64,000 nt of DNA from Verrucomicrobiia bacterium (GTDB taxonomy: Bacteria; Verrucomicrobiota; Verrucomicrobiia; Limisphaerales; CAIMTB01), in NCBI GenBank assembly GCA_019634625.1, contig JAHCBA010000030.1:1-64000 (forward strand), read 5' to 3'. Positions 194 to 14,093 of this stretch are shown one piece after another (the first letter of the stretch is position 1; each line of letters opens with the position of its first letter). The notes beneath the pieces were generated by a model that saw only the letters and a program-made list of their open reading frames with translations, ran no database searches and had not been told where the DNA came from. The position numbers and the translations under genes are program-made.

Positions 194-1079
194 TTAGTTC
201 AATCGCACCAAGGCGGTCGCCGCTGATTCGGCATCAAGACGCTCCTGGATGGACCCTGCGATCGCGGCGGCCGTGCGTTGGACGGTCCCGGTAAAGACCT
301 CACGCCCGTTGACCCGCACGGTCACTGGGCGGTCGAGATCCAGCAGGGCATCGGAAAGGCGCAGGTCGATCACTGCCGGCACCTGGCCGGTGAGGGTGAT
401 GATCTGCCCCTCGCATGCCGCCTCGATCTTTGCGCGCTCGTCGATGGCCTGTTCCTCCGGGGTCCGCGGCGGCCAGGCGCCCGAGTTCCGCCGCCCGCCC
501 GGCCACCACGGTGTTGCGGTTGTAGGCCGCGTCGTTGCCACCGACGAACACCGCAAACGGCAGATTGCGCAACCCCAGCACCGAGGATTCGTTCGGATGC
601 CCCGCCATCATCGCGGCCGACGCGAATCGGTCGGCCATGCGAGGCGCCAGTTGCCAGACTACGTCGCCGCCCGCCGAGTAGCCCAAGAGGTACACGCGGT
701 CAGGATTCACTCCGGACAGGGCCACATGGGCATCGATCAGGCTCTGAAACAGCGGATCGATGTGGGCTTCGTGCCACAGATTCCACGTGTCGGTCGGCGC
801 CCGGGGGGCCACGTAGATGCCCTCGGCCGGTTCGTACAGGCGGATCTAGGTTGCGCCACTGGCGGTCGTTGACCTCCGGACGGGTGTTGCCGCCTCCGTG
901 CATCGAAATCCACAGGCTCCTCCCTTCCGGCGGCGCCTCGCCGAAGGTCCGGTCCAGCCATCGCAGCACCCGGTCGCCATGAGCCATCGACTTCTCCGCC
1001 ATCGCCTTCCGCCACCGGGCCGAAGGGGAGTTCCCGCACTTCGTTCCCAGGGACAAATTGCAGACGTCCTTCCAACCCG
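194..1079 (-). pseudogene. Decayed copy of the transglutaminase/alpha-beta hydrolase gene at 5841-8111
   Basis: Three minus-strand frames together match the C-terminal half of the intact protein 4.8 kb to the right. They share the serine-hydrolase core (GYSAGGD, then MMAGHPNE..VLGLRNLPFAVFVGGND), the upstream SLWISMHGGGNTRP block, and the C-terminal LRLSDALLDLDRPVTV block. The frames cannot be joined. There is a one-base insertion near 846-848 relative to the intact gene. Sequence is missing between the ELPFGP and EKSMAHGDR blocks and again between GRLAAADP and the TPEEQAIDERAK block, and the transglutaminase half is absent. It is a partial duplication that has decayed and makes no complete enzyme. 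Similarity to the intact copy remains high, so the duplication is probably not ancient. Confidence 0.85.
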
Positions 1080-1083
1080 GGGG

Positions 1084-1320
1084 TCAGATCAAGCCGGTCC
1101 GCGACTTCATCTCAAGCGCGCACCCTCCCTCCCCGAGCAGGTACTGATCGAGCATCTCGGACAGCGGATCCACCAGCCAGTACTCCCCCACCCCATGCGC
1201 CTCGTAGAACCGGCGACGGCGTTCCCGCTCCGCGCCCAGACGGGCATCCAATTCGGCCACGAACTCGGGAAGCGTCGGCAACTCCATCACCTGTTCCAAC
1301 AACGCGTTCAAGGAACGGGG
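1084..1320 (-). pseudogene. Uma2-family (DUF820) nuclease remnant
   Basis: The minus-strand frame ending at 1084 contains RRRRFYEAHGVGEYWLVDP followed by a short acidic and glycine-rich tail. This is the hallmark C-terminal half of Uma2/DUF820 restriction-endonuclease-like proteins, where (K/R)R..Y...GV.EYWLVDP is conserved. The N-terminal half of the fold (the LSPS..H and catalytic D regions) is missing, and the frame fuses into unrelated sequence near 1320. It lies between the hydrolase pseudogene and the 3' end of the M56 gene and seems to be another broken gene in this scar. Family call by motif; it is clearly incomplete. Confidence 0.6.
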
Positions 1321-1403
1321 GTACAGACCGCCACCCGACCGGCAAGGACGCCCCGATCTTCGCCTTGGATGGTCCGAAAGGCTGGAGATCACCAAGAAGC
1401 CCG

Positions 1404-4400
1404 TCACCACTCCCCGATCCGGTTACTGATCTTCTCGTGGTCCCGCCCGCCATACCGGCGCCCGGAAACGCCATCGGGGCTTTCTCGCAACTCCAGGCTA
1501 TAGAGAATGCACACACGCCACGGGGACTGGTCCGGCGCAGTGACCAGGAACTCCTCCACAGTGCCCGGTGCGACCATCGCCGTGCTGCCCGACGGATAGT
1601 CGCGAGCGACGGTCCTCCAGCCGACCGGTTCGGAGACGTCATCCGGATCCCACACCTGGACCCGGACGTTCCACACCAGAATCCCCAGGGACTCGGCGTT
1701 CGTCACCGCGAACCGCGCGATCGACTCATTGGGATGCCTCGGACGAAGGGAGACCGAGATGCGATGCGGGTTGACCCGGTACACAGGCACGTAGAGATCG
1801 CCCATGGCATGGACGACATATTCGTCCGCATGCTCCTTCCCGGAGCCGTTCCCCTGAGGTTCCGCGACGCGAGCCTCCGCGGATGCGTCGGGCACGTCTT
1901 CGATCGGGAGAGCGTCGAGTCGTTGCGGCGCATCGCCTGGGGGATCGGGCGGCAATTCGGTTTCGCGCGACCGGCCTGGATCCGCGGCGGCACCGTCGGG
2001 CACGGCCTCGTCGATCCCAACCTTCGGCACGGCCTTCAGTCGAATCGGTTCCTGTCGGCTTTCCAGCGTGGCCTCGTCGAAGGCGTCCGATGGGGCATAC
2101 CCGGGCGCATCGAAGCGGTAATACCGAGGCTGGACCTCGGGTGCGGCGCCGATTCGAAAAAGACCCTCCCCATCGAGAGCGATCGGACGCGGTTCGCTGA
2201 CGATGACTTGAAAACGACCCTCGCGACCGATGGCGATCGGACTCGATTCCCAAACGACGGCATCCTCGTCGAATTCCCGTCGGCCTCGCCGGACGCGGAA
2301 ATGCGGAACGTCCCGCCCGTCGTCGGCGTCGATGACCCGGCCCGCGAGTTCCCGAATGGGCGAGAGGGTGACGGTGACGTGTGTGACATCGGAGGGCCGA
2401 TGCACCATGGACGAAACGAATCCGTCGCGCGACACCTCCAGCAGCGTGCCGAACGCCGGGGCATGGGTCCAAACCGCCCTGCCTCGAAGGTCCGTTTCCG
2501 GCCGCGCATCGAGGACCCACCTGCCTTCCATCGAAGTCGCCGCGATCACGGCATCGGAGACCGGTTCACCCTCGGGCCCCTGAACGTCCAAGGTCAGCTC
2601 GACACCCGGCTGGAGGACGATCGGTTCGATCACCGTGGGCGATCTGCCTGCATCGATCGGCACCAGCCTGGACGCGAATCCAGGCGCCTCCACCAACCCC
2701 AACCAGTCCGTGGGTTGGCCGGCGATTCTCATCGCAAAGGCCCCGGTCGCATCGGTGCGCGTGCCAACGACATCCCGGCGGCTTTGCCGGTCCCTCACCC
2801 GGACCGTGGCACCCCGGATCGGGCGCTGCCGGGAGTCCACGACGCTTCCGAGAAGGGCCCGCCCTCCCGAAAGGCGAATCCGGATCGGAGCCCCCCTCCT
2901 TTCGGCCGGTCGCAGGGTCCGCCGGAAGGGCTCGGCGAATTCGGGGTGCAGCACCTTCAGGCGAATCGACTCCGCGGGAAGTTCGCGGGGAATGACGCTG
3001 GAACTCCACTGTCCGTCGATGTCGCTGACCGCGACGATCTTGGTAAGGAATGGAAACTCCTTGGCGTCGCCGGCAAAGTTGGGCGGGGGCCCTTCGATTC
3101 GGACCAGGGCGTTGCGTACCGGTTGCCCCTGTTCGTCTTCGATCCTGCCCGCAATGCGCTCTCCCGGCTCCGCTCGGTAAACGTACTCCTCCGGAAAGTC
3201 GCCGTGCTGGCGGCGGGTCCATTGGATGAGGCGCGGCACGTAGCGATCATGATTGGCCCAGAGGCCGATCGACTTCAGGGGGGCCTCCGGGTAACGCACC
3301 TCCGCCCAACCCTCCTCGTCCGTGTCGATCGTCGCCACCCGACAATGGACCCCGTCCTCCGCCAGCTCGAGCCGAAGCCGCATCCCCGCGATCGGTTCGC
3401 CACTCTCCCCGTCCACGGCCCGAAACCGAAGCATGCCCGTCCAAGGCGCTTCGACTGCGGGAACGACCGCCTCCTCCCGCCATGCGGCGGGCAACTCGGC
3501 CCCCCCAACCGCCATCCCGACGACGACGAACGCAGCCGATTCTCCCGCGGACACGAGATCGATCGTACGAACCGTCCTCTCGGGATGCGGATTCGCCAAA
3601 GCGGAGAGACCGAGTCTCACGGAATTGCCATACTCGGCGAGGTTCGGCCCGTCGCCACTCCATACGATGCGGGAATCGGGATCGGAGAGCCTCGTCGGCG
3701 TTTCGTACCGTTGACGCCAATAGTTGAGTGTGTGATGCCCGTATCGAACGGGCAGTTCGGCGACGGTGCCGTCGGCGTAGTTCAATCGGATTCGCGCGAT
3801 GGTGGCGCCGTTGTCCGCGTAGTAATAGGTCCCGTGCAGGAGGTACAGGCGTCCGAAGGCTCGTCCCACGGCGATCCCCCTCGCCGCGGTGCGGAAGTAC
3901 CACTCTTCCCGGGTGGCATCGGTCCCCGCCAACCGGATGAGTCCGGAGATCGAGAACGGCACGCCGAGGAAGGTCCGCCTGCCCCGTGGGATCTGCCACC
4001 ACATGCCGGGCGGATCGAGCTGCCGGTGGAAGACGCCCGGCTCGAGGTGATCCCCCGGGAAGTCGGTGTGGCCGCCCAGATCGATGGCCTCCACGCCCCG
4101 GACGTACGGAGCCTCGGACGACCCATCGGGAGCCGCGTCAGGAAGTCGGGTAAGCGCGCCGACACCCAGGAGTCCCAGGAGGCTCGCCCCGAGGATCGAA
4201 GCGAAGCGAGGCGTGGGGCGCGCTTGAACCAGCATCTTCAACCGTCGCGGAAGCGGATTCGACCGCTCCACGATTCCCAACAACGGCTCGGAGGCTCCCC
4301 CGGCGGGCATGACAGTGGCCAGCTTGAGCAGGGTCGCCCCGTACGCACGGCGCGCGTCGAGATCCGCTCCCCGCAACGCCAGGGCATCGCACGCGGGTTC

Positions 4401-5261
4401 CAGATCGCGACGGATTCGAGATGCCGCCCACCGGACTGCCGGATTGAACCAATGAATGCAGGTCAGAAGGGTGACCCAAGCGTTCCACAACGTGTCCCTC
4501 CGACGGAGGTGCGCGAACTCGTGCCGGAAGATGTGGCGCCATTCGTCCGCTCCCAGTTCGCGAACCAGCCTCGCCGGGAGGACCAGGACAGGACGGAACC
4601 ACCCGTAAAGACCGGGACCGTCGAGATCCGGATGCACCCGCACCTCCACCGGCCGGCGCACTCCGGCCTCCTGACGACAACGCTCGATCAGTCGTCCCAG
4701 CGCCTCGTCCTCCGGAGCCGGACACCGTCGGAGGCAACGCCGGAACAGCACGGCTCCCACGGCATGCCGCACCAGCAGCCCGGCCCCCACCGCACCCCAA
4801 AGCACCGACAGCCACTCCATCCACCAAGGAAACCTTCCGGTCCCCGTTCGAGCGACCGAGTCGTCGGCGGGAATCGGCAGCCAGTCGGCGCCGTACACTC
4901 GAGGTAGAGCCGAGGGATCCGGAGCGCGAAGCCTCTCCCGATCGCTCACGTCCACCACCGCGACCCCGGGTGCGGGCGCAGCGGGAAGAACGGCTTCCGA
5001 GGCCACCGGTCGAGCCGGCACGAGAATCCGTTCCTCCGTCCGCCACGCGGTCAGTCGCTGCCAACTGAGCGAACTGGCCGGAAGGGTCGGGAGGGAGAGT
5101 CGAAGCAGGACCACGAACCAGAGTGCGAACGTCCACCCCGGACCCAGCCGATTCCGCAACACGCGCTGAAGGGCCACCACGACCAGAATCAGGGCGGCGC
5201 CTTCGATCGAAACCCTGACGACCGCCCCGAACACCGCCATCCACCATTCCGGAAGGTTCAT
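1404..5261 (-). CDS. BlaR1/MecR1-type M56 membrane metallopeptidase with long carboxypeptidase-regulatory-like tail
   Basis: The 1285-residue product probably senses an envelope signal and inactivates the BlaI-type repressor encoded just upstream. Hydrophobic segments near residues 10-35, 42-60 and 145-165 frame an M56 peptidase domain with the zinc motif HEFAH at about 247-251 and a downstream RRDLEPACDALAL. A further membrane segment near 350-370 (LGASLLGLLGVGAL) precedes about 900 residues likely to be outside the cytoplasm. These contain repeated carboxypeptidase-regulatory/CnaB-like units, for example RIAGRIEDEQGQPVRNALVRI and ALLGSVVDSRQRPIRGATVRV. The penicillin-binding sensor of classical BlaR1 is absent, so the ligand is unlikely to be a beta-lactam recognised in the classical way. 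The start overlaps the blaI-like stop by 4 bp (ATGA), indicating translational coupling. Family assignment is solid; the signal is unknown. Confidence 0.9.
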   Translation of the reverse strand: MNLPEWWMAVFGAVVRVSIEGAALILVVVALQRVLRNRLGPGWTFALWFVVLLRLSLPTLPASSLSWQRLTAWRTEERILVPARPVASEAVLPAAPAPGVAVVDVSDRERLRAPDPSALPRVYGADWLPIPADDSVARTGTGRFPWWMEWLSVLWGAVGAGLLVRHAVGAVLFRRCLRRCPAPEDEALGRLIERCRQEAGVRRPVEVRVHPDLDGPGLYGWFRPVLVLPARLVRELGADEWRHIFRHEFAHLRRRDTLWNAWVTLLTCIHWFNPAVRWAASRIRRDLEPACDALALRGADLDARRAYGATLLKLATVMPAGGASEPLLGIVERSNPLPRRLKMLVQARPTPRFASILGASLLGLLGVGALTRLPDAAPDGSSEAPYVRGVEAIDLGGHTDFPGDHLEPGVFHRQLDPPGMWWQIPRGRRTFLGVPFSISGLIRLAGTDATREEWYFRTAARGIAVGRAFGRLYLLHGTYYYADNGATIARIRLNYADGTVAELPVRYGHHTLNYWRQRYETPTRLSDPDSRIVWSGDGPNLAEYGNSVRLGLSALANPHPERTVRTIDLVSAGESAAFVVVGMAVGGAELPAAWREEAVVPAVEAPWTGMLRFRAVDGESGEPIAGMRLRLELAEDGVHCRVATIDTDEEGWAEVRYPEAPLKSIGLWANHDRYVPRLIQWTRRQHGDFPEEYVYRAEPGERIAGRIEDEQGQPVRNALVRIEGPPPNFAGDAKEFPFLTKIVAVSDIDGQWSSSVIPRELPAESIRLKVLHPEFAEPFRRTLRPAERRGAPIRIRLSGGRALLGSVVDSRQRPIRGATVRVRDRQSRRDVVGTRTDATGAFAMRIAGQPTDWLGLVEAPGFASRLVPIDAGRSPTVIEPIVLQPGVELTLDVQGPEGEPVSDAVIAATSMEGRWVLDARPETDLRGRAVWTHAPAFGTLLEVSRDGFVSSMVHRPSDVTHVTVTLSPIRELAGRVIDADDGRDVPHFRVRRGRREFDEDAVVWESSPIAIGREGRFQVIVSEPRPIALDGEGLFRIGAAPEVQPRYYRFDAPGYAPSDAFDEATLESRQEPIRLKAVPKVGIDEAVPDGAAADPGRSRETELPPDPPGDAPQRLDALPIEDVPDASAEARVAEPQGNGSGKEHADEYVVHAMGDLYVPVYRVNPHRISVSLRPRHPNESIARFAVTNAESLGILVWNVRVQVWDPDDVSEPVGWRTVARDYPSGSTAMVAPGTVEEFLVTAPDQSPWRVCILYSLELRESPDGVSGRRYGGRDHEKISNRIGEW

Positions 5262-5674
5262 GAGTTTGGCCTTTCGGTGTGCTCGTCCAGGATGCGTTTC
5301 ATCTCCCGGACCTCCTCCGGCGTCAGCCGTTGCCGGGTGGCGAAGTGAACGATGGCCTCCTTGATCGCGCCCCCGAAGACCCGCTCAAGAAACGTGCCGC
5401 TCTCCGCGGCCACCATCCGCTTCCGCGTAACGAGCGGTGTGTAGAGGTAAAGATTCTTGTGCGGCCGAGCCTCGACGAGCCCCTTGCGCACGAGCCGCGC
5501 CAGCATGGTCCGGACGGTGTTCGGATGCCGCGAGCCGCCCTCGGACAACGCCTCGATCAGATCGTAGGCCGTCTGGGGCGACCGTTCCCAGAGGAGTTCC
5601 ATCAAGCGCCACTCCTGCGTCCCCAACGCGGGAGGCGAGCCCGCGTGCTTCTTTTTCCTATTCGCGACCGGCAT
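5258..5674 (-). CDS. BlaI/MecI/CopY-family winged-helix repressor
   Basis: The protein has about 138 residues, normal for BlaI/MecI. It has the typical N-terminal winged helix (LGTQEWRLMELLWERSPQTA, then HPNTVRTMLARLVRKGLVEA) and a C-terminal dimerisation region with the protease-sensitive stretch. It should bind a palindromic operator and repress its own operon until cleaved through the action of the co-encoded M56 protease. I prefer the ATG at 5674 (MPVANRKKK). The alternative GTG at 5689 lies inside the operator, and the predicted transcription start falls near 5674. The gene overlaps the downstream M56 gene by 4 bp. Regulation is predicted to be autogenous. Confidence 0.9.
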   Translation of the reverse strand: MPVANRKKKHAGSPPALGTQEWRLMELLWERSPQTAYDLIEALSEGGSRHPNTVRTMLARLVRKGLVEARPHKNLYLYTPLVTRKRMVAAESGTFLERVFGGAIKEAIVHFATRQRLTPEEVREMKRILDEHTERPNS

Positions 5675-5679
5675 GAACT

Positions 5680-5695
5680 CACTACACACGTAGTG
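5680..5695. promoter_or_regulatory. Predicted BlaI-type operator
   Basis: CACTACACACGTAGTG is a perfect inverted repeat with 6-bp arms (CACTAC/GTAGTG) and a 4-bp centre. It contains the TAC..GTA core typical of BlaI/MecI operators. It overlaps the predicted -10 box of the blaI-like gene and lies just upstream of its ATG, exactly where an autorepressor should bind. Confidence 0.75.
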
Positions 5696-5709
5696 GGTTT
5701 TTCAGGCAA
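5681..5709 (-). promoter_or_regulatory. Predicted promoter of the blaI-M56 operon
   Basis: On the minus strand, TTGCCT (5709-5704) and TGTAGT (5686-5681) are separated by exactly 17 bp. Each matches four of six sigma-70 consensus bases. The -10 box lies within the operator palindrome. Transcription would begin at about 5674, the A of the preferred ATG, implying a leaderless or nearly leaderless mRNA. Confidence 0.5.
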
Positions 5710-5840
5710 CGAAATTCTCCCCGGCGGCACGCCTTTCCATCGGAGGGCCCAGCTCCCGCGAGGCCAGGCACGGGTTTCGATCGCAGGGGTGGACTCGCGG
5801 AGCTCGTCCCTCCGATTTCAACCCCTCGGGGAACCGTTGC

Positions 5841-8111
5841 TCAATTCCAGCGAAGGATGGCCGTTGCGGCCGAAGCCGCGTCGAGGCGCTCCTCCAGGGA
5901 CTCGGCGATGGCGGCGGCGGTGCGATCCGCTTTGCCGGCGAAAACCTCCGTGCCGTTGACCGTCACGGTGACGGGCCGGTCAAGGTCGAGCAGGGCGTCG
6001 GACAACCGCAATCGAAGCGTCCCCGGAACCTCTCCGCTCAACGCGATCGACTGTCCATCGCACACGGCCTCGATCCTGGGGCGCCCCTCGATGGGGGTCT
6101 CGGGCGGAATCTGCAGCCAATAGAAGCGGCGGTGAACGACGTCGTCCTGCTCCCACACGATCTTCTTCGGCCACGGCTGGCGGGTGAAGGTCGCCATCCA
6201 CGGCAGCGCCTCCGCATCCTTCTTCTGCATCCAGTGCCCGATGCCCTCGTACACGCGGGCCATGTGGATGTAGGCGCCCGGATCCGCCTCGGCCAACCGG
6301 CCGAGTTGCGCGGCACGCTCGGCGACGACCGTGTTGCGTCCGTAAGCGGAATCGTTCCCGCCGACGAAAACGGCGAAGGGCAGATTGCGAAGTCCCAGGA
6401 CCGAGGCCTCGTTCGGATGCCCGGCCATCATCGCCGCGGCCGCAAATCGGTCGGCCATGCGAGGCGCCAATTGCCAGACTCCGTCGCCACCCGCCGAGTA
6501 TCCGAGCAGAAAAACCCGATTCGGGTTCACTCCCGCGAGGGCGACGTGGGCGTCGATGAGACTTTGGAACAGGGAATCGATGTGGGCCTCGTGCCAGAGG
6601 TTCCAGGTGTCCGTGGGCGCACGAGGGGCGAGGTAGATGCCTTCGGCAGGCTCGTAGAGATCGATCTGATTGCGCCACTGCCGATCGTTGACGGCGGGTC
6701 GCGTGTTGCCTCCGCCGTGCATCGAGATCCACAGGCTGCGTCCGTCGGTCGGGGCATCCCCGAACGTCTTGTCGAGCCAGCGCAGCTCCCGGGTGCCGTC
6801 GCCGATGATCTTTTCCGACATCGCGTTCCGCATCTCCTCCGCGACGCGCGCGGTCCGGTCGGCGAAGAGCAACTCCAGACACCGCGCCGCCTCCGCCTTC
6901 GATAAGGAGGCCTGCATGGCGGGCAGATCCGATGGGCGCTCGGAGAACGGCAACGCAAGCCACGCCTCGATGGCGTCGATCGCCGGAGAGGCCGGACGGA
7001 GGTTTGCCCAGACCGCGTCGATCGTCGGCTCCCCCTTCTCGAGCGGACCGAACGGCAGTTCCCGAATCTCGTCGCCCACAGCGAATCGAAGTGTGCCTCG
7101 AAGACCGGGCTCGAGGCCGAGACGTGCCATGTCGTTCATGTCGGCGGTGCCGGCCTTCGTTTCGGCCTCGGCGACCACGCCGCCCGCCGGTTCGACCGCG
7201 CAGACACGGGCCACGATCCGGGTCCCACCCGGTCGATCGAAGAGGCGAACTCCCAGCATCGCACCGGCGCTCTCCGGGGATGCGCCGGCGCGCGGGCTCG
7301 TATAACGGGCGGTGACGTTGACCGCCGCCACGCTGCTCTGCCGACGGGACCAGACCATCGGAAAGGAAAGCCCCTCGCGCTTCCATGAGGTCGCGTAGAT
7401 GGCATGACGCGGTTCATCCGCCTTCGCCTTCGAGGCGTCGCCCGTGAACCAGCCCCGGTTCAATCCGCTGGCGTCGTACTCGTCCGCCCCGGTGAAATGC
7501 CAGTCGCCATCCCAAACCTCCACCCAGGTGTGGTTGCCCCGCAGATTGGTCCACATCGGGGTCCCGACCGCCCGGGCCGGAATGCCCACCGCACGGCACG
7601 CTCCCACCAGGATGATCGACAGTCCCGTGCAGGTGGCCCGGCTGATCTCGATCGATTCCTTCGGACTCTGGTTCGCCCGCTTCCGGCCCGTGTGGTAGTG
7701 GACATTGATCCGGTTGAACAACTCGCGGTTCAGCGTCTGGACCGCCTCGGTCGCGGTCGTCGCCTCCTTCACCAGTTCACCGGCCAGCTCGTAGAACTGC
7801 GCCCGCCACGGATCTCGCGGTTCATCGAACACCGCGTAGGGCAGAACATCGTTGTGGAACAATTCGACCGGCACCGACGCCGCCCACGGGAATCGCTCCC
7901 GCGCCCGGAATGCGAGATCCAGATTCTCGATCAGGAACTCCGCCGACAACGCCTCGCGATCCGCCTCCGGCATGTGCTCGATCAGGAACCGCGCCGCCTC
8001 TTCGCCGGGCGTCCCGTGCCGCTCACGCGCCGCCGCCAGAAACTCGTCGTGGGAAGAACCCCGGGCCGAAGTCGCCAGGGCGAGGAACAGTACGAGGACA
8101 GCGCGCATCAC
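5841..8111 (-). CDS. Secreted transglutaminase-like plus alpha/beta-hydrolase fusion protein
   Basis: The product has 756 residues and an N-terminal signal peptide (MMRAVLVLFLALATSARG). The first half carries a transglutaminase-like domain with the expected Cys (SRATCTGLS), His (GNHTWVEVWDG) and Asp (FTGADEYDAS) elements. The second half is a serine hydrolase of the dienelactone-hydrolase/esterase type, with an oxyanion-hole HGGGN and the nucleophile elbow GYSAGGD. A candidate acid is in VFVGGNDSAY and a candidate catalytic His in EGIGHWMQ. Substrates cannot be read from sequence; extracytoplasmic protein or peptide processing is plausible. A decayed partial copy lies at 194-1079, on the other side of the blaI-M56 pair. 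The start could be either of the two tandem ATGs. Confidence 0.85.
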   Translation of the reverse strand: MMRAVLVLFLALATSARGSSHDEFLAAARERHGTPGEEAARFLIEHMPEADREALSAEFLIENLDLAFRARERFPWAASVPVELFHNDVLPYAVFDEPRDPWRAQFYELAGELVKEATTATEAVQTLNRELFNRINVHYHTGRKRANQSPKESIEISRATCTGLSIILVGACRAVGIPARAVGTPMWTNLRGNHTWVEVWDGDWHFTGADEYDASGLNRGWFTGDASKAKADEPRHAIYATSWKREGLSFPMVWSRRQSSVAAVNVTARYTSPRAGASPESAGAMLGVRLFDRPGGTRIVARVCAVEPAGGVVAEAETKAGTADMNDMARLGLEPGLRGTLRFAVGDEIRELPFGPLEKGEPTIDAVWANLRPASPAIDAIEAWLALPFSERPSDLPAMQASLSKAEAARCLELLFADRTARVAEEMRNAMSEKIIGDGTRELRWLDKTFGDAPTDGRSLWISMHGGGNTRPAVNDRQWRNQIDLYEPAEGIYLAPRAPTDTWNLWHEAHIDSLFQSLIDAHVALAGVNPNRVFLLGYSAGGDGVWQLAPRMADRFAAAAMMAGHPNEASVLGLRNLPFAVFVGGNDSAYGRNTVVAERAAQLGRLAEADPGAYIHMARVYEGIGHWMQKKDAEALPWMATFTRQPWPKKIVWEQDDVVHRRFYWLQIPPETPIEGRPRIEAVCDGQSIALSGEVPGTLRLRLSDALLDLDRPVTVTVNGTEVFAGKADRTAAAIAESLEERLDAASAATAILRWN

Positions 8112-8173
8112 GGACCCGGACCCTACCCCTCCACCGCCCCATCGAGAACCGGAAACCGACGCGCCCCGTGCAA

Positions 8174-8398
8174 CTACCGCTTGCGAACCGGTCCAACGAT
8201 CTCGACCGTGACCGGCACCCCATCGAACTCCTCCGGCACCGAGCCTTCGGGCGACGGCGGCTCGCTCAGGTTGACCTTCAGCGCGTAACCCGAACCTGCC
8301 CGGGTGATCCCGATCCCCGCCAGGCCGCCCAGCGAACCCAGCGCCGCCAACGCCGCCACCTTCGCCGCCCGCGCCGCTTCCAGACTGGCCGGTTTCAT
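8174..8398 (-). CDS. Small hypothetical protein, likely partner or detached N-terminus of a trypsin-like protease
   Basis: The 74-residue ORF lies 55 bp downstream of the CHAT/protease chimera on the same strand. It has an Ala-rich helix followed by GIGITRAGSGYALKVNLSEPP and FDGVPVTVEIVGPVRK. That pattern (GIG...YALKVNL...DGVPV.VEVVG) recurs, as I recall, in small ORFs or N-terminal regions linked to bacterial trypsin-like/Nal1-like proteases. It has no membrane segment or signal peptide. A role as a structural piece or partner of the neighbouring protease half is inference. Confidence 0.6.
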   Translation of the reverse strand: MKPASLEAARAAKVAALAALGSLGGLAGIGITRAGSGYALKVNLSEPPSPEGSVPEEFDGVPVTVEIVGPVRKR

Positions 8399-8453
8399 GA
8401 CAACACCACCATTTCGGCCATTACACCGGGCCGCCCCGCCGATTCAACGCCAA

Positions 8454-9479
8454 TCACGCGAGCGCCAGCTCGACCTTCAGGGCCTGAAGCACGGCATGAA
8501 TCGGGTTGGCGTAGGTCAGACCCTGCCCGTTTGCCCCGCCCTGGTCGGACCCCGCAAACAACAACGCCACCGCCCGGAGATCGCTCCCCACGATCAACGA
8601 TCCGCTGTCGCCCCCCTCCGAGAAGGAACCCTCTTCCGCCCCTTCGATCTCGATCTGGTTGTCGAAGCGGAGCTCCCCGATCCCGAAGGCCACTCGGATA
8701 TTGTCCAACTCGAACGCGGTGACCCGCCCACGCGTGAGCCCGGTGGTCCGTCCCACCTTCGCCACAACAGTGCCTTCGTCGAGGAACACGTCGCCCACGC
8801 CCGTCAGTCGCCCCAGTCCTTTCAAATGCGCCGGTTTCACCTCGATCCCTTCGGCGACCGATGCCAGCTCCCGCAATTCGTCGTACGTGCCGCTCTCGGC
8901 GAAGTCGGGGTGCACGCGGTCACCCAGCCTGGCGGTCGCCTTCAGGATGGCGTCTTCCTCCCGGTCGTAATCCAGTTGGCCAAGGGAGATCGGTGCGCAG
9001 GCACAGAAGAGAATCCTCAACGGTCGCGGAATGGCCGGGGCGCCATTCACGGCAAAACGCGGGCGCACGGTGCGGCGCATGGACCATCGCCCGTCCTCGA
9101 CCAGAAATCTTCCTCCCTGCGCCGGGAGCAGTTCCCACGGCAGATTGAGAAGGCCGGCATCCGAGGAACGAAAAACGATCCGACATCCGTCATCCGGCGA
9201 CTCCCCACTCCATCCGTCGATGACCGGCCCGAACACGGCCTTTCGCAGACGCCCACCGAGGTCCAGGAGATCCACCGGATCCATCAGCGGCCGCCTACCG
9301 GCGCCGAACCCGGAGTCGAACGTCCCGGCGTCCCGCAGCAGGGCCTGCCGCACCTCCAGTGGAATCGTCCTCTCCCACGGTCGCCCGGGCGGATCCTCCG
9401 CCGGCACTCCGTCCAGATCGGCGGTGACCCGAACCTCGCCTCCCGGCTTCGTTTCGAGGTGGATGGCGATCTCGCGCAT
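8454..9479 (-). CDS. CHAT-domain / trypsin-like protease chimera
   Basis: The protein has 341 residues. Residues from about 80 to 215 resemble the N-terminal half of a CHAT (caspase-like) domain: LLNLPWELLPAQGGRFLVED, then PRPLRILFCACAPI, LDYDREEDAIL and SGTYDELREL. From about residue 220 the sequence switches to the C-terminal half of a trypsin/Nal1-like protease: VVAKVGRTTGLTRGRVTAF, FDNQIEIEG, the serine motif GGDSGSLIV, ALLFAGSDQGG and LTYANPI. The CHAT His and Cys regions (HLSGHG, then N.C.S) are missing, as is the protease half that would carry His and Asp. It therefore looks like an in-frame join of two genes and is probably catalytically inactive, unless it is completed by another protein. 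CHAT proteins and trypsin-like peptidases co-occur in bacterial conflict systems; this gene may be the remains of such a pair. Confidence 0.7.
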   Translation of the reverse strand: MREIAIHLETKPGGEVRVTADLDGVPAEDPPGRPWERTIPLEVRQALLRDAGTFDSGFGAGRRPLMDPVDLLDLGGRLRKAVFGPVIDGWSGESPDDGCRIVFRSSDAGLLNLPWELLPAQGGRFLVEDGRWSMRRTVRPRFAVNGAPAIPRPLRILFCACAPISLGQLDYDREEDAILKATARLGDRVHPDFAESGTYDELRELASVAEGIEVKPAHLKGLGRLTGVGDVFLDEGTVVAKVGRTTGLTRGRVTAFELDNIRVAFGIGELRFDNQIEIEGAEEGSFSEGGDSGSLIVGSDLRAVALLFAGSDQGGANGQGLTYANPIHAVLQALKVELALA

Positions 9480-9603
9480 GGGCTGGCTCGAAGACGAGCA
9501 ATGGGAACGGCGACCCCGGAGTGAATCTCAAGCCCGGGCGCGAAGCCAATCCCCATTTCGGGGAATGCCGACGGAGCCGATTCCGTGGTCGCGGCGCGCG
9601 ATC

Positions 9604-12600
9604 TCACCCGGTCCCCGTGCCGCTTTCGCGCTCCCGTACGATCCGCCACACGCGCAGGGCCTCGGTGACCGACCAGGCCTGGGCGTCGCAGCCGCGGTGG
9701 GTGTGCGGGGCGTCGCCATCCACGATTTCGGGCAGGTGCCCGGCACAGCCTTCATGCAGCAACCGGTCGCTGCTGCCCAGGATGGCGCGGGCAGCGCGCA
9801 CAGCCTCGGGCCGCCGGTCCCACGCCTCAACCAGCGCCTCGGCGAGAATCGGCAGGAACCAGGTCCACGCAGTCCCGTTGTGGTAGGCAGGTTTGCGCGA
9901 GGTGTCTTCGTCGCCTTCATACCGGCCCCGATAGGGACGTTCCGGATCATTCAGCAAACGCCCATCCGGACCGCGAAGCGGCAGCGGCGGCGACACAGGC
10001 AACGGAGCGAGCGAACGCACAGCCCCCGGCACCAGGAGATGGCGCAAGGCCGCCATGACCGCTCGTCGAGCCGACACTCCGCGAACCAGACCGAAGGCGA
10101 CGGGAAGCAGCATGTTGCATCGGAGCGCCGTGTCCGGCGTGGCATCCCGGGCCGGCGTCCCTTTCGGCGCCAGAAGGACGTCGCTGTACCAACCCTGTTC
10201 CTCGATCCAGAAATACCGGTGCCAGTGGGCCTCGGCCCGTTCCGCCAGTTCGCCCCAGCGACCGGCCCGGTCCGGGTCGGCGTCGCGCAGGAACCGCAGC
10301 GCCCGGATCCACAGCGCCTGAATCTCGACGGGATAGCCTTCCCGGGGCGTGCAGGCCGGATGGTTGGTATCCATCCAGGTGAAGTGCGACGGACTCCAGA
10401 CCAGCGCCGATTCGGGATCGACCCGGATGCCATTGGGTGTGCCGGTCAGGTATCCCTCGACCAGACGACGCACCACCTCGACGATGGTCGGGCCGCCGGG
10501 AGCAACCTGTCGGCGCAGCACCTCTCCCCGTCCTTCCACCGAGGCTTCCTCGACAACGACGGCGTACCAAAGCGGCGCGTCGCTGGTGTCGCGGTTCGAG
10601 GCGTTGTCCCCGTGAATCGCATTGGGAAGAGTGCCGCGAACCTCGAACCGCCCGAAGGTCTCCAGAATCTCGATCACTTCCGCACGCCATCCTCCGACCA
10701 GCAGCCCGCGGGCCGCGATGAGGGTGTCGCGTCCCCAGTCCAGAAACCAGGGATACCCGGCCACCACCGTTCGTCCGGTGCCGCGCCGCACCACGAACGC
10801 CGCGCAGGCCCGACGCAACGCCGATTGCCACCCGTCCTCCCCGTCCCCGACCTCCAACTCCCGACCCGCCGAATCCCCGACAGCTCCGAAGTCGCCCCGA
10901 AACACCCGCGCCACCGCATCAAGGTCTGGCCCGTCCGATTCGGCATCGAGCAACAGGACCATGTTGTCACCCGGGGCCAGAGGAATCTCGAACCACCCCG
11001 GACTGTATGCATCGCCCGAACCCTGCTGCCCGCGTCCGGCCTCGAACGGATGCGGCACGCCCTCGCACCACTCGGGCTCGCCATGAAACACTCCCCGACT
11101 CACGGTCACCCGCAGGTGCCGGTCCTCCGCCGGCCGAAACTCAAATCCCGCCGCCCCGTTGAGGGGACGGCAATGCTCCCGAAAATGGTGCTCCGCCCCG
11201 GGGTTCCGCCGGGTCTCGCCATGAAAACTGCGGTCTTCGAGATCCACCCGCAGCGTCAGGCGCACCTCCATCGGCCGATCCCCCGGATCGCGCCTGAACC
11301 GCAGGACAGTGGTGTTCCGCCCCTCGATCATCGCGGCCTCGATCGTCAGGGCAACATGGCGTCCATCCCCGGCATTCGCCCGGAACGTCCAGCACGCCAC
11401 CGGCCCGCCGGTGAACCCGGTCAGGTTGTGCCGGTCGAGGGCGGAAAGAAATCCGTCCGCGTTCAACCAGGCCCGGACCCGCTTGACGAAGACATGCCGG
11501 TCCACCGGCACCGACGCATGGAGATTGGCCCCCAACGCACAGTCGTACTTCGACCGGATCGCGCCCCAATCCACCCGCAACCGCGCCATCCCGCCCCGGC
11601 CATTGGTGAGCAGGGCCAGTCCCTCGGAATCCACCGGCGCAACCTGCGCCGGTCGGTCCGCGAGGAATCGCACTTCGGCCACAATCTGCGCGGGCTCCCC
11701 GTCATGCCGCTCGATCGTCAACCGGCCCGTCACCGACCCGGCCGGCTCACGCGGCGCCAGTGTGGCGACGTATCCGCCAGCCACCGGCACCGACTCGACA
11801 TGCTCCGCCGTGTCGGCCCCCTCCGTCTCCAGCCAGGCCCGGAATCCCGATTCATCCTGGATCACCAGCCACCAACCGGGCGGCACCAGCGTCACCCGGC
11901 GCGCATCCTCGACGCGCCAGATCATCGTGTTGGGGAACGCTTCGCCGGACTCCCTCACCCGCCCGACTGCGGTCCAGTCCAGCAGCACCTCCCGATCCGC
12001 CCGGACCCGCGCCACCGCCGTTGAAAGCGCCGCCAGCCAGGCTGCGGGTCCGACCTCAATCTGTCCGGCGAGTACGGACCCGTCCGGGTGCGGCGCGAGG
12101 CGCTCGGCCGGCAACAGACCGGCCGCCTGCCGAATGGCCCAGGCCGCACGGGCGTTCACGTCGCGCCAGCGATCCCCGTAGCCGGGTTCGGGTCCCGGCC
12201 CGGGAGCAAGGCAGTACGCGGCGCCAGCCTCCAGTCCGGCCACGATCCCCTTCTCGGAGGTCGCCAAAATGGGCGGCGCCTGGCCCAGCAAATCATGGGA
12301 CCACGCCGCCCCGTCCGGCAGCTCTGTCGCCGGGAATGTCACAGCCGCCGCCTGATCCACCTGCGTGTTGACCAGCACCAGCAACGGCCATTGCCCGTCC
12401 GCCGAACACCGGTAAAGGGCGAGGACGGGTGATCCGGGCGGGCTGATCCGGCGCACCGTGGCTCCGGCGAAGAAGGCCGGATGATCGGCCAGCAGGCGGT
12501 TCAGGGCGGACAGTTCCCCGACCAGGTTTTCCGGCTGATCCCAGGCCAGCCCGGTCCGCTGATGAACCCGGATCTTTTCCGGGGCCAGCCACTCGACCCC

Positions 12601-13950
12601 GCAGGTGAACCCGAAGCCGCCGTTCACACTCGCCAGGGCGCACAGGCGGTTTCGCAACAGCGACCAGGCGCGCCCACGGACCGCCAGCCGGTCGTTGTCG
12701 TGGGTCTCGCTGTAATGCACGTAGGTCCCCACCCGGGCGCTCTGCTCCAGCGCGTAGTCCAGGTAGCGCTGCACCTCCGCACCCGAATAGTTCTGAAACA
12801 GCTCCGAATACGCCCATTGCAGCCCCCCCTCGGTCAGCAGCCGCTCGGTCGCCTCCCACGACCCCCCCAATCCCTCCAGAAGAAACACCGTGTCCGGAAA
12901 CGCCGCCCGCACCCGCGCCGTGATGTACTGCCACACATGGACCGGGATCTGGTACCCCGCATCGCACCGGAATCCGTCCACCCCGCGCCGGCACCACGTC
13001 AGCAACGCCTCCGCCATGAGATCCCAGAGGGCGACATCCCGCTGTTCCAGCTCGACCAGATCCTCCCACACCACCCCCCACGCGCCGGGACTGACATACG
13101 TGCCGTCGGCTTCCCGCCGGAAATACTCCGGGTGCTCCTCGAACAGCCGTGATCCCCAGCCGGTGTGGTTGATCACCAGATCCAGAAACACCCGCGCCCC
13201 CAGCCGATGCGCCTCCCGGGTCAGCTCCCGGAACTGATCCACCCCGTTGCTGCGCCGGTCGAACTCCACCAGCGCCGGATCCACCGCCGTCAGGTCCAAG
13301 GCCGCATACGGACTCCCCATCCGCCCCATCCGCGCATGGACCGTCGGGGTCGGATGCACGGGAAGCAGATGAAGGATCCGGCATCCCAGCCGCCCGACCA
13401 CAAACGGAAGCTGCCGCGCCAGGTCCCGAAAGGTCCCCGAAGGGGGCAGCACCGCGAACCCCCGTTCCTCCAGCTCCCGGATCGCCCCCTCCCCGGCATC
13501 CGGCAGCCAGTGCCGTGCCGCCCGCGTCTCCCCGAACAGCCGCGTGAACGCGCAGTACACCAGGTTGGCCGAACGACAGCGGTCCGGATGCACTCCAATG
13601 CCGGCGTCCGGACCTTCCGGCCAGTGAAGATACCCGCGCCCATCCACCAGGTAGGGTTTGGCCAGGGAATACCCCACCTCGGTCAGCAGCAGATCCCGGG
13701 ACCAACCCGCCCCGTTCCACGTCATCGGCACGTCGTGCCAGGCCACCCCGAACGGCGGCACCCGCGCCGTGTGCGCCCGAACGATCTCCGCCCGCCACGC
13801 ACGCCCGCGCCCCAACGTCGTCCGCAGCCGCGCCCGCCAGCCCTGGTCGGGATGGATCCCGTCCTCCGCGCGAATGGAAAAGTTGAGTGTGTCGCCGACG
13901 TGTCCGACGAGGCGGGCGCCGGGCGCGGGCGACATGACGATCGATGGCAT
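9604..13950 (-). CDS. GH13 alpha-amylase / GH133 amylo-alpha-1,6-glucosidase fusion (glycogen debranching enzyme)
   Basis: The product has about 1448 residues. The N-terminal half is a GH13 barrel with VFLDLVINHTGWGS, the nucleophile motif DGFRCDAGY, the acid/base LLEGLGGSWE and SETHDNDRLA. The C-terminal half has the glycogen-debranching (GH133) signature PWFLDWGRDTLIAARGLL, an HGDNASNRDTSDAPLW segment and an HNGTAWTWF motif. It should debranch glycogen or alpha-glucans through 4-alpha-glucanotransferase and alpha-1,6-glucosidase activities; this pairing is usual in eukaryotic-type and some bacterial debranching enzymes. No signal peptide is seen, so it is probably cytoplasmic. The open frame continues to 14061, but I prefer the ATG at 13950 (MPSIVMSPAPG; GAGG just upstream) or 13935. 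Confidence 0.85.
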   Translation of the reverse strand: MPSIVMSPAPGARLVGHVGDTLNFSIRAEDGIHPDQGWRARLRTTLGRGRAWRAEIVRAHTARVPPFGVAWHDVPMTWNGAGWSRDLLLTEVGYSLAKPYLVDGRGYLHWPEGPDAGIGVHPDRCRSANLVYCAFTRLFGETRAARHWLPDAGEGAIRELEERGFAVLPPSGTFRDLARQLPFVVGRLGCRILHLLPVHPTPTVHARMGRMGSPYAALDLTAVDPALVEFDRRSNGVDQFRELTREAHRLGARVFLDLVINHTGWGSRLFEEHPEYFRREADGTYVSPGAWGVVWEDLVELEQRDVALWDLMAEALLTWCRRGVDGFRCDAGYQIPVHVWQYITARVRAAFPDTVFLLEGLGGSWEATERLLTEGGLQWAYSELFQNYSGAEVQRYLDYALEQSARVGTYVHYSETHDNDRLAVRGRAWSLLRNRLCALASVNGGFGFTCGVEWLAPEKIRVHQRTGLAWDQPENLVGELSALNRLLADHPAFFAGATVRRISPPGSPVLALYRCSADGQWPLLVLVNTQVDQAAAVTFPATELPDGAAWSHDLLGQAPPILATSEKGIVAGLEAGAAYCLAPGPGPEPGYGDRWRDVNARAAWAIRQAAGLLPAERLAPHPDGSVLAGQIEVGPAAWLAALSTAVARVRADREVLLDWTAVGRVRESGEAFPNTMIWRVEDARRVTLVPPGWWLVIQDESGFRAWLETEGADTAEHVESVPVAGGYVATLAPREPAGSVTGRLTIERHDGEPAQIVAEVRFLADRPAQVAPVDSEGLALLTNGRGGMARLRVDWGAIRSKYDCALGANLHASVPVDRHVFVKRVRAWLNADGFLSALDRHNLTGFTGGPVACWTFRANAGDGRHVALTIEAAMIEGRNTTVLRFRRDPGDRPMEVRLTLRVDLEDRSFHGETRRNPGAEHHFREHCRPLNGAAGFEFRPAEDRHLRVTVSRGVFHGEPEWCEGVPHPFEAGRGQQGSGDAYSPGWFEIPLAPGDNMVLLLDAESDGPDLDAVARVFRGDFGAVGDSAGRELEVGDGEDGWQSALRRACAAFVVRRGTGRTVVAGYPWFLDWGRDTLIAARGLLVGGWRAEVIEILETFGRFEVRGTLPNAIHGDNASNRDTSDAPLWYAVVVEEASVEGRGEVLRRQVAPGGPTIVEVVRRLVEGYLTGTPNGIRVDPESALVWSPSHFTWMDTNHPACTPREGYPVEIQALWIRALRFLRDADPDRAGRWGELAERAEAHWHRYFWIEEQGWYSDVLLAPKGTPARDATPDTALRCNMLLPVAFGLVRGVSARRAVMAALRHLLVPGAVRSLAPLPVSPPLPLRGPDGRLLNDPERPYRGRYEGDEDTSRKPAYHNGTAWTWFLPILAEALVEAWDRRPEAVRAARAILGSSDRLLHEGCAGHLPEIVDGDAPHTHRGCDAQAWSVTEALRVWRIVRERESGTGTG

Positions 13951-14093
13951 GACCTCGCGCCCAAGCAGACCGCGCCAGACTTGGGTAGGCAAGCCGGAGT
14001 GGTGTCTCCGCTGCAAATCGCGAATGGCGAATGGCGAACAGGGCATTCTCCAAGTCGGCATCGAGGAAGCAGCCGTTCGCAGGGACGCTCACC

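Follow-up and report, generated by a model that had tools for sequence, protein, structure and literature searches.

Conflict systems in which CHAT, trypsin-like and STAND proteins occur together have been described (Kaur et al. 2020, PMC7159879; Kaur et al. 2021, PMC8195603; PMC10907252; Tuck et al. 2025, PMC12799240). Small trypsin-co-occurring proteins, Trypco1 and Trypco2, were described in the NTP-dependent members of this group (PMC7159879, PMC8195603), and in the nuclease-protease pairs and caspase-nuclease loci of bacterial immunity a trypsin-like or caspase-like protease is the activating partner (PMC12799240). The locus considered here lies in a 64,000-nucleotide stretch of a Verrucomicrobiia genome (contig JAHCBA010000030.1), called the window below. 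It comprises a hybrid reading frame, in which the beginning of a CHAT protein runs into the end of a protease related to NARROW LEAF 1 (Nal1), and a small gene directly downstream (Table 1). We argue that the hybrid is very probably the scar of an in-frame deletion, which removed about 3 kb from inside a three-gene operon.

Table 1. Positions of the features of the locus and of related loci
Feature	Position	Strand	Remarks
Hybrid ORF	window 8454-9479	-	341 aa; CHAT N-terminal part and Nal1-like protease C-terminal part
Hybrid residues 1-205	window 8865..9479	-	N-terminal beta-rich region and N-terminal part of CHAT domain
Hybrid residues 206-341 and stop codon	window 8454..8864	-	C-terminal part of Nal1-like trypsin-fold protease, GGDSGS present
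Joint L205/A206	window 8865/8864	-	codon CTG (L205), then GCA (A206); placed by aligning each half with complete parents
Small gene	window 8174-8398	-	74 aa; intact, full length
Glycogen-debranching gene	window 9604-14061	-	flanks the locus
Transglutaminase/esterase gene	window 5841-8111	-	flanks the locus
Fragments like transglutaminase/esterase gene	window 197-1017	-	64-85% identical to parts of that gene
L027 CHAT-AAA/STAND-like NTPase-TPR coding region	1084-4382		frameshift around 2600-2840 as read
L027 complete protease	4410-5408
L027 small gene	start ~5535
L038 (Planctomycetaceae contig), second CHAT/protease joint	4920-5085		CHAT 217-243 to protease 300-327
L039 (G108, window's order)	5001-5360		frameshifted protease tail remnant, then intact small gene
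L086 (G134)	6041-7604		close CHAT-NTPase-TPR relative with frameshift and internal deletions
L084 (G546)	5140-12001		intact CHAT-NTPase-TPR gene and following genes
L104 (window genome)	G000:C19:39457-40170		second, more distant Nal1-like protease
Complete proteases compared with hybrid C-terminal half			L004, L025, L026, L027, L028, L029, L033
Loci with small gene and complete protease			L025, L026, L027, L028, L029, L030, L031, L032, L034, L036, L037

The hybrid frame and its two parents

Residues 1-208 of the hybrid are 42% identical (E 2e-36) to the CHAT-NTPase-TPR protein of a Hydrogenedentota locus, L027. Residues 205-340 align with complete proteases of about 330 residues at 67-73% identity (E down to 4e-57; 67% for the protease of L027). 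Pfam matched both halves below the curated cut-offs: CHAT (PF12770) on residues 74-140 with an E-value of 0.031, covering just the first ~65 of its 289 profile positions, and Nal1_C (PF25819) on residues 236-300 with an E-value of 7e-6 (25.8 bits against a cut-off of 26.1). The CHAT half was assigned from its alignment with four relatives, L027, L084, L085 and L086; Pfam detects CHAT in L027 (E 9e-22) and L084 (E 6e-25), together with an AAA_16/STAND-like NTPase and TPR. The C-terminal half is 68-72% identical to complete members that pass the Nal1_C cut-off. Taken alone, the profiles give weak signals, and the identity of both halves is certain because homologues match them. Each half follows its complete parent along its full length, and the two alignments end at one common point.

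This point is about 30 bp from position 8835, near which the first-pass annotation had placed the join; the join itself exists. On the CHAT side it precedes the HLSGH motif by ~10 residues, and on the protease side it follows the catalytic Asp (VDCA) by 4, so that both catalytic sets are incomplete. The CHAT His (HLSGH) and Cys (SGCETA) are absent from the 341 residues and lie past the joint in L027, L084 and L085. The protease His (NNHVLA) and Asp lie N-terminal of the joint and are missing too, which leaves GGDSGS, with the Ser, as the sole catalytic motif. The annotation's description of a CHAT half without His and Cys and a Nal1-like half that keeps GGDSGS without the His and Asp half was therefore accurate. 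Given the residues on which catalysis is known to depend in the two families, we would expect the hybrid to be catalytically inactive.

No decay is visible in the hybrid frame, which is open from end to end. Third-position G+C is normal, at 0.78/0.81 against 0.77-0.83 in neighbouring genes. The protease half keeps 47 of the 48 columns that are invariant among complete relatives, and its branch is of ordinary length, with no accelerated change. With the protease half so well preserved, either the deletion was recent, or the frame has been kept open, or an error of assembly produced the joint.

The Nal1-like protease and the small gene

Sequence and predicted fold both place the complete protease with NARROW LEAF 1. 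Complete relatives pass the Nal1_C cut-off and carry the motifs NNHVLA, VDCA and GGDSGS, and the 32 best Foldseek matches of the L025 model are all rice NAL1 chains (E down to 9e-13). AlphaFold modelled the complete protease from a 13-row alignment with a pLDDT of 69 and a pTM of 0.74, and its N-terminal domain is predicted to fold as strand-strand-helix-strand.

The small gene is conserved. A homologue lies 3' of a complete protease on the same strand in each of the 11 loci whose sequence extends far enough; the records are labelled Akkermansia (MAGs), Hydrogenedentota, Acidobacteria, Rokubacteria, Proteobacteria and Actinobacteria, and the small proteins are 40-56% identical to the 74-residue protein of the window. 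Compared end-to-end by hhalign, the small-protein family and the protease N-terminal domain match with a probability of 84% (E 7e-6), which bears out the relationship to the protease N-terminal region proposed in the first-pass annotation. The 74-residue protein matches no Pfam family at E<=10, Trypco1 and Trypco2 included, and no NCBIfam or PADLOC model. We considered that it might be the N-terminus of the neighbouring protease, displaced, and rejected this, because intact loci hold a separate small gene besides a protease that has an N domain itself. Judged from these alignments, the small gene is an intact, conserved, stand-alone relative of the protease family's N-terminal domain, and its product may act as a protease inhibitor or folding partner.

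Most of these protease-small gene pairs have no adjoining CHAT gene; a CHAT neighbour was sought at the other protease loci and none was found except in L027. Elsewhere in the window genome there is a second, more distant Nal1-like protease, 44% identical to that of L025.

Origin of the joint

In L027, the CHAT-NTPase-TPR gene, the protease gene and the small gene follow one another on one strand, tightly spaced, in the order and orientation that the parts have in the window. The points that match the joint, at ~1662 in the CHAT gene and ~5001 in the protease gene, are ~3.3 kb apart. This is the only genome where the three genes stand together with no deletion between them, and its CHAT gene is frameshifted as read. 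We infer that an ancestor of the window genome had the same arrangement: a CHAT-STAND-type NTPase-TPR gene, then a Nal1-like trypsin-fold protease gene, then a gene for a 74-76 residue relative of the protease N domain. The deletion would have joined CHAT residue 205 in frame to the C-terminal part of the protease, with loss of the CHAT His and Cys, the entire NTPase and TPR regions and, on the protease side, the N domain together with the His and Asp.

The first-pass annotation had raised conservation of the junction across genomes. No match spanning the joint was found outside the window's own genome among 196 order-level and 388 phylum-level genomes; there was no other in the genome contigs of 84,980 species and none in viral contigs, both covered by a peptide-pattern scan, or in plasmids. 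A conserved CHAT/protease architecture was accordingly rejected. In homologues, CHAT and protease are separate genes, the pattern that the annotation had associated with a local deletion. No other contig of the window assembly carries the missing NTPase/TPR region or protease N part; TPR matches of 26-31% identity on contigs C1 and C7 were taken as other TPR proteins and rejected as the missing middle. A Planctomycetaceae contig, L038, holds a second CHAT/protease joint (LCFEDERGRLDARDGPEMAERSFAGSDQGGANGQGLTYANP), at a place that differs from the one in the window. Its halves meet at FAG, a triplet present in each parent, and no intact CHAT relative was found in that genome. Finally, another genome of the window's order (G108) retains a frameshifted protease tail in front of an intact small gene. 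Because no homologue spans the joint, the middle is absent, a second joint exists in L038 and G108 holds this remnant, a deletion within the operon is the simplest account. The hybrid is real but probably dead, most likely an ordinary gene remnant left by a deletion. Its product would lack protease activity, and we take it for a pseudogene, probably a recent one.

Could the middle have been dropped during assembly, the organism itself having a complete CHAT-NTPase-TPR/protease/small operon? The undecayed state of both halves and the 88 contigs of the window assembly would be consistent with such an artefact. However, the joint is in frame, which would happen once in three times by chance, the middle sits on no other contig, and a comparable but different joint occurs in another assembly (L038). 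We consider an assembly artefact unlikely.

The first-pass annotation had offered two readings, a fossil of a CHAT-protease system or a deliberate regulatory chimera. The separate genes in the same order in L027, the different joint in L038 and the lack of any homologue with the window joint favour the fossil. Nothing gave positive support to the chimera, which would act with the small protein as a non-catalytic adaptor or dominant-negative partner; we regard it as most improbable, and it owes the small chance it keeps to the undecayed open frame. Also on its side are the retention of conserved residues in the protease half, the intact small gene directly downstream and the inactive caspase and trypsin domains reported in effector position in MoxR-vWA ternary systems (PMC7159879). 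Yet no second genome has the same joint, each half is cut within a fold, and neither partner protein is whole in the window genome. In the AlphaFold model of the hybrid (16-row alignment; pLDDT 55.5, pTM 0.50), the first ~140 residues are fair and the protease half scores 29-46, although the complete protease is predicted better. This hints faintly that the protease half may fail to fold, since the alignment was shallow and the last part of four CHAT rows was misplaced. In a wider version of the chimera, the hybrid would function together with the small protein as a CHAT-protease adaptor devoid of catalysis, and Nal1-like protease and free N-domain relative would form an undescribed two-gene module, in which the small protein is a separate inhibitor or folding partner, sometimes under a CHAT-NTPase-TPR switch. 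We think this very unlikely.

The deletion account may be extended: the small gene alone would have been retained and selected, for a role independent of the protease, the hybrid being tolerated debris. We put this forward tentatively, as a doubtful addition. The window copy is full length, and in G108 too an intact small gene follows a broken protease tail. There are just two such cases, though, against 11 complete loci in which the small gene accompanies the protease; and as a second Nal1-like protease is encoded elsewhere, a protease partner is not strictly absent from the window genome.

Hybrid gene relatives were not found in the other four genomes of the genus (G001-G004), nor was a clean empty site or an intact sister locus; relatives of the two flanking genes, glycogen-debranching and transglutaminase/esterase, sit on different contigs there. 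Near the start of the window, fragments resembling the transglutaminase/esterase gene contain one in-frame TAG and lie in more than one frame; from their sequence they seem to be the decayed remains of another copy of it.

A CHAT-domain search found close relatives of the CHAT family in 2 of 320 genomes of the order, the window genome and G134, whose copy is broken, with no protease nearby. In G546 and G585, which belong to the window's class, CHAT-NTPase-TPR is a single open gene of 1008 and 1133 residues, 45-50% identical to L027, again with no protease nearby. In G546 this gene is followed by one with a predicted membrane segment and, by eye, two caspase-like genes, a group that is a possible conflict locus.

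Comparison with described systems

What would the intact operon have done? From what is known of these families, sensing and switching would fall to the TPR/NTPase part, with the CHAT and trypsin-like proteases acting downstream. The small protein, similar as it is to the protease N domain, would bind or hold the protease. A conflict role for the intact operon is plausible, because CHAT, trypsin-like and STAND proteins co-occur in the conflict systems cited above. The repeated breakage in the window, L038, L039 and G134 would fit genes that carry a cost or are of use only under some conditions, which is often true of conflict genes. PADLOC models matched neither the hybrid, nor the small protein, nor the complete proteases; the CHAT proteins of L027 and L084 gave just a weak match over an NTPase stretch or matches to generic TPR models.

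The arrangement to which the hybrid points may merit following in its own right: a Nal1-like protease paired with a free-standing small gene that resembles the protease's N-terminal domain. The pair occurs in several phyla, has no family name in the libraries searched, and is coupled to a CHAT-NTPase-TPR protein in L027.

Compared with NARROW LEAF 1 proteases, the window copy has just the C-terminal part with the Ser, whereas the bacterial family as a whole adds a separate small-gene partner resembling the N domain. The hybrid resembles CHAT-STAND NTPase-TPR proteins in its N-terminal half, as the alignment with L027 indicates, and differs from them in that the window copy has no NTPase, no TPR and no catalytic portion of the CHAT domain. 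With the nuclease-protease pairs and caspase-nuclease (canu) loci (PMC12799240) the contrast is in the neighbours, no nuclease gene having been identified beside the window or L027 genes. The NTP-dependent conflict systems (PMC7159879, PMC8195603) differ from our locus, where we identified no MoxR or vWA gene and where the small protein matched no Pfam family at E<=10; what they share with it is that peptidases, STAND NTPases and TPR are found close together.
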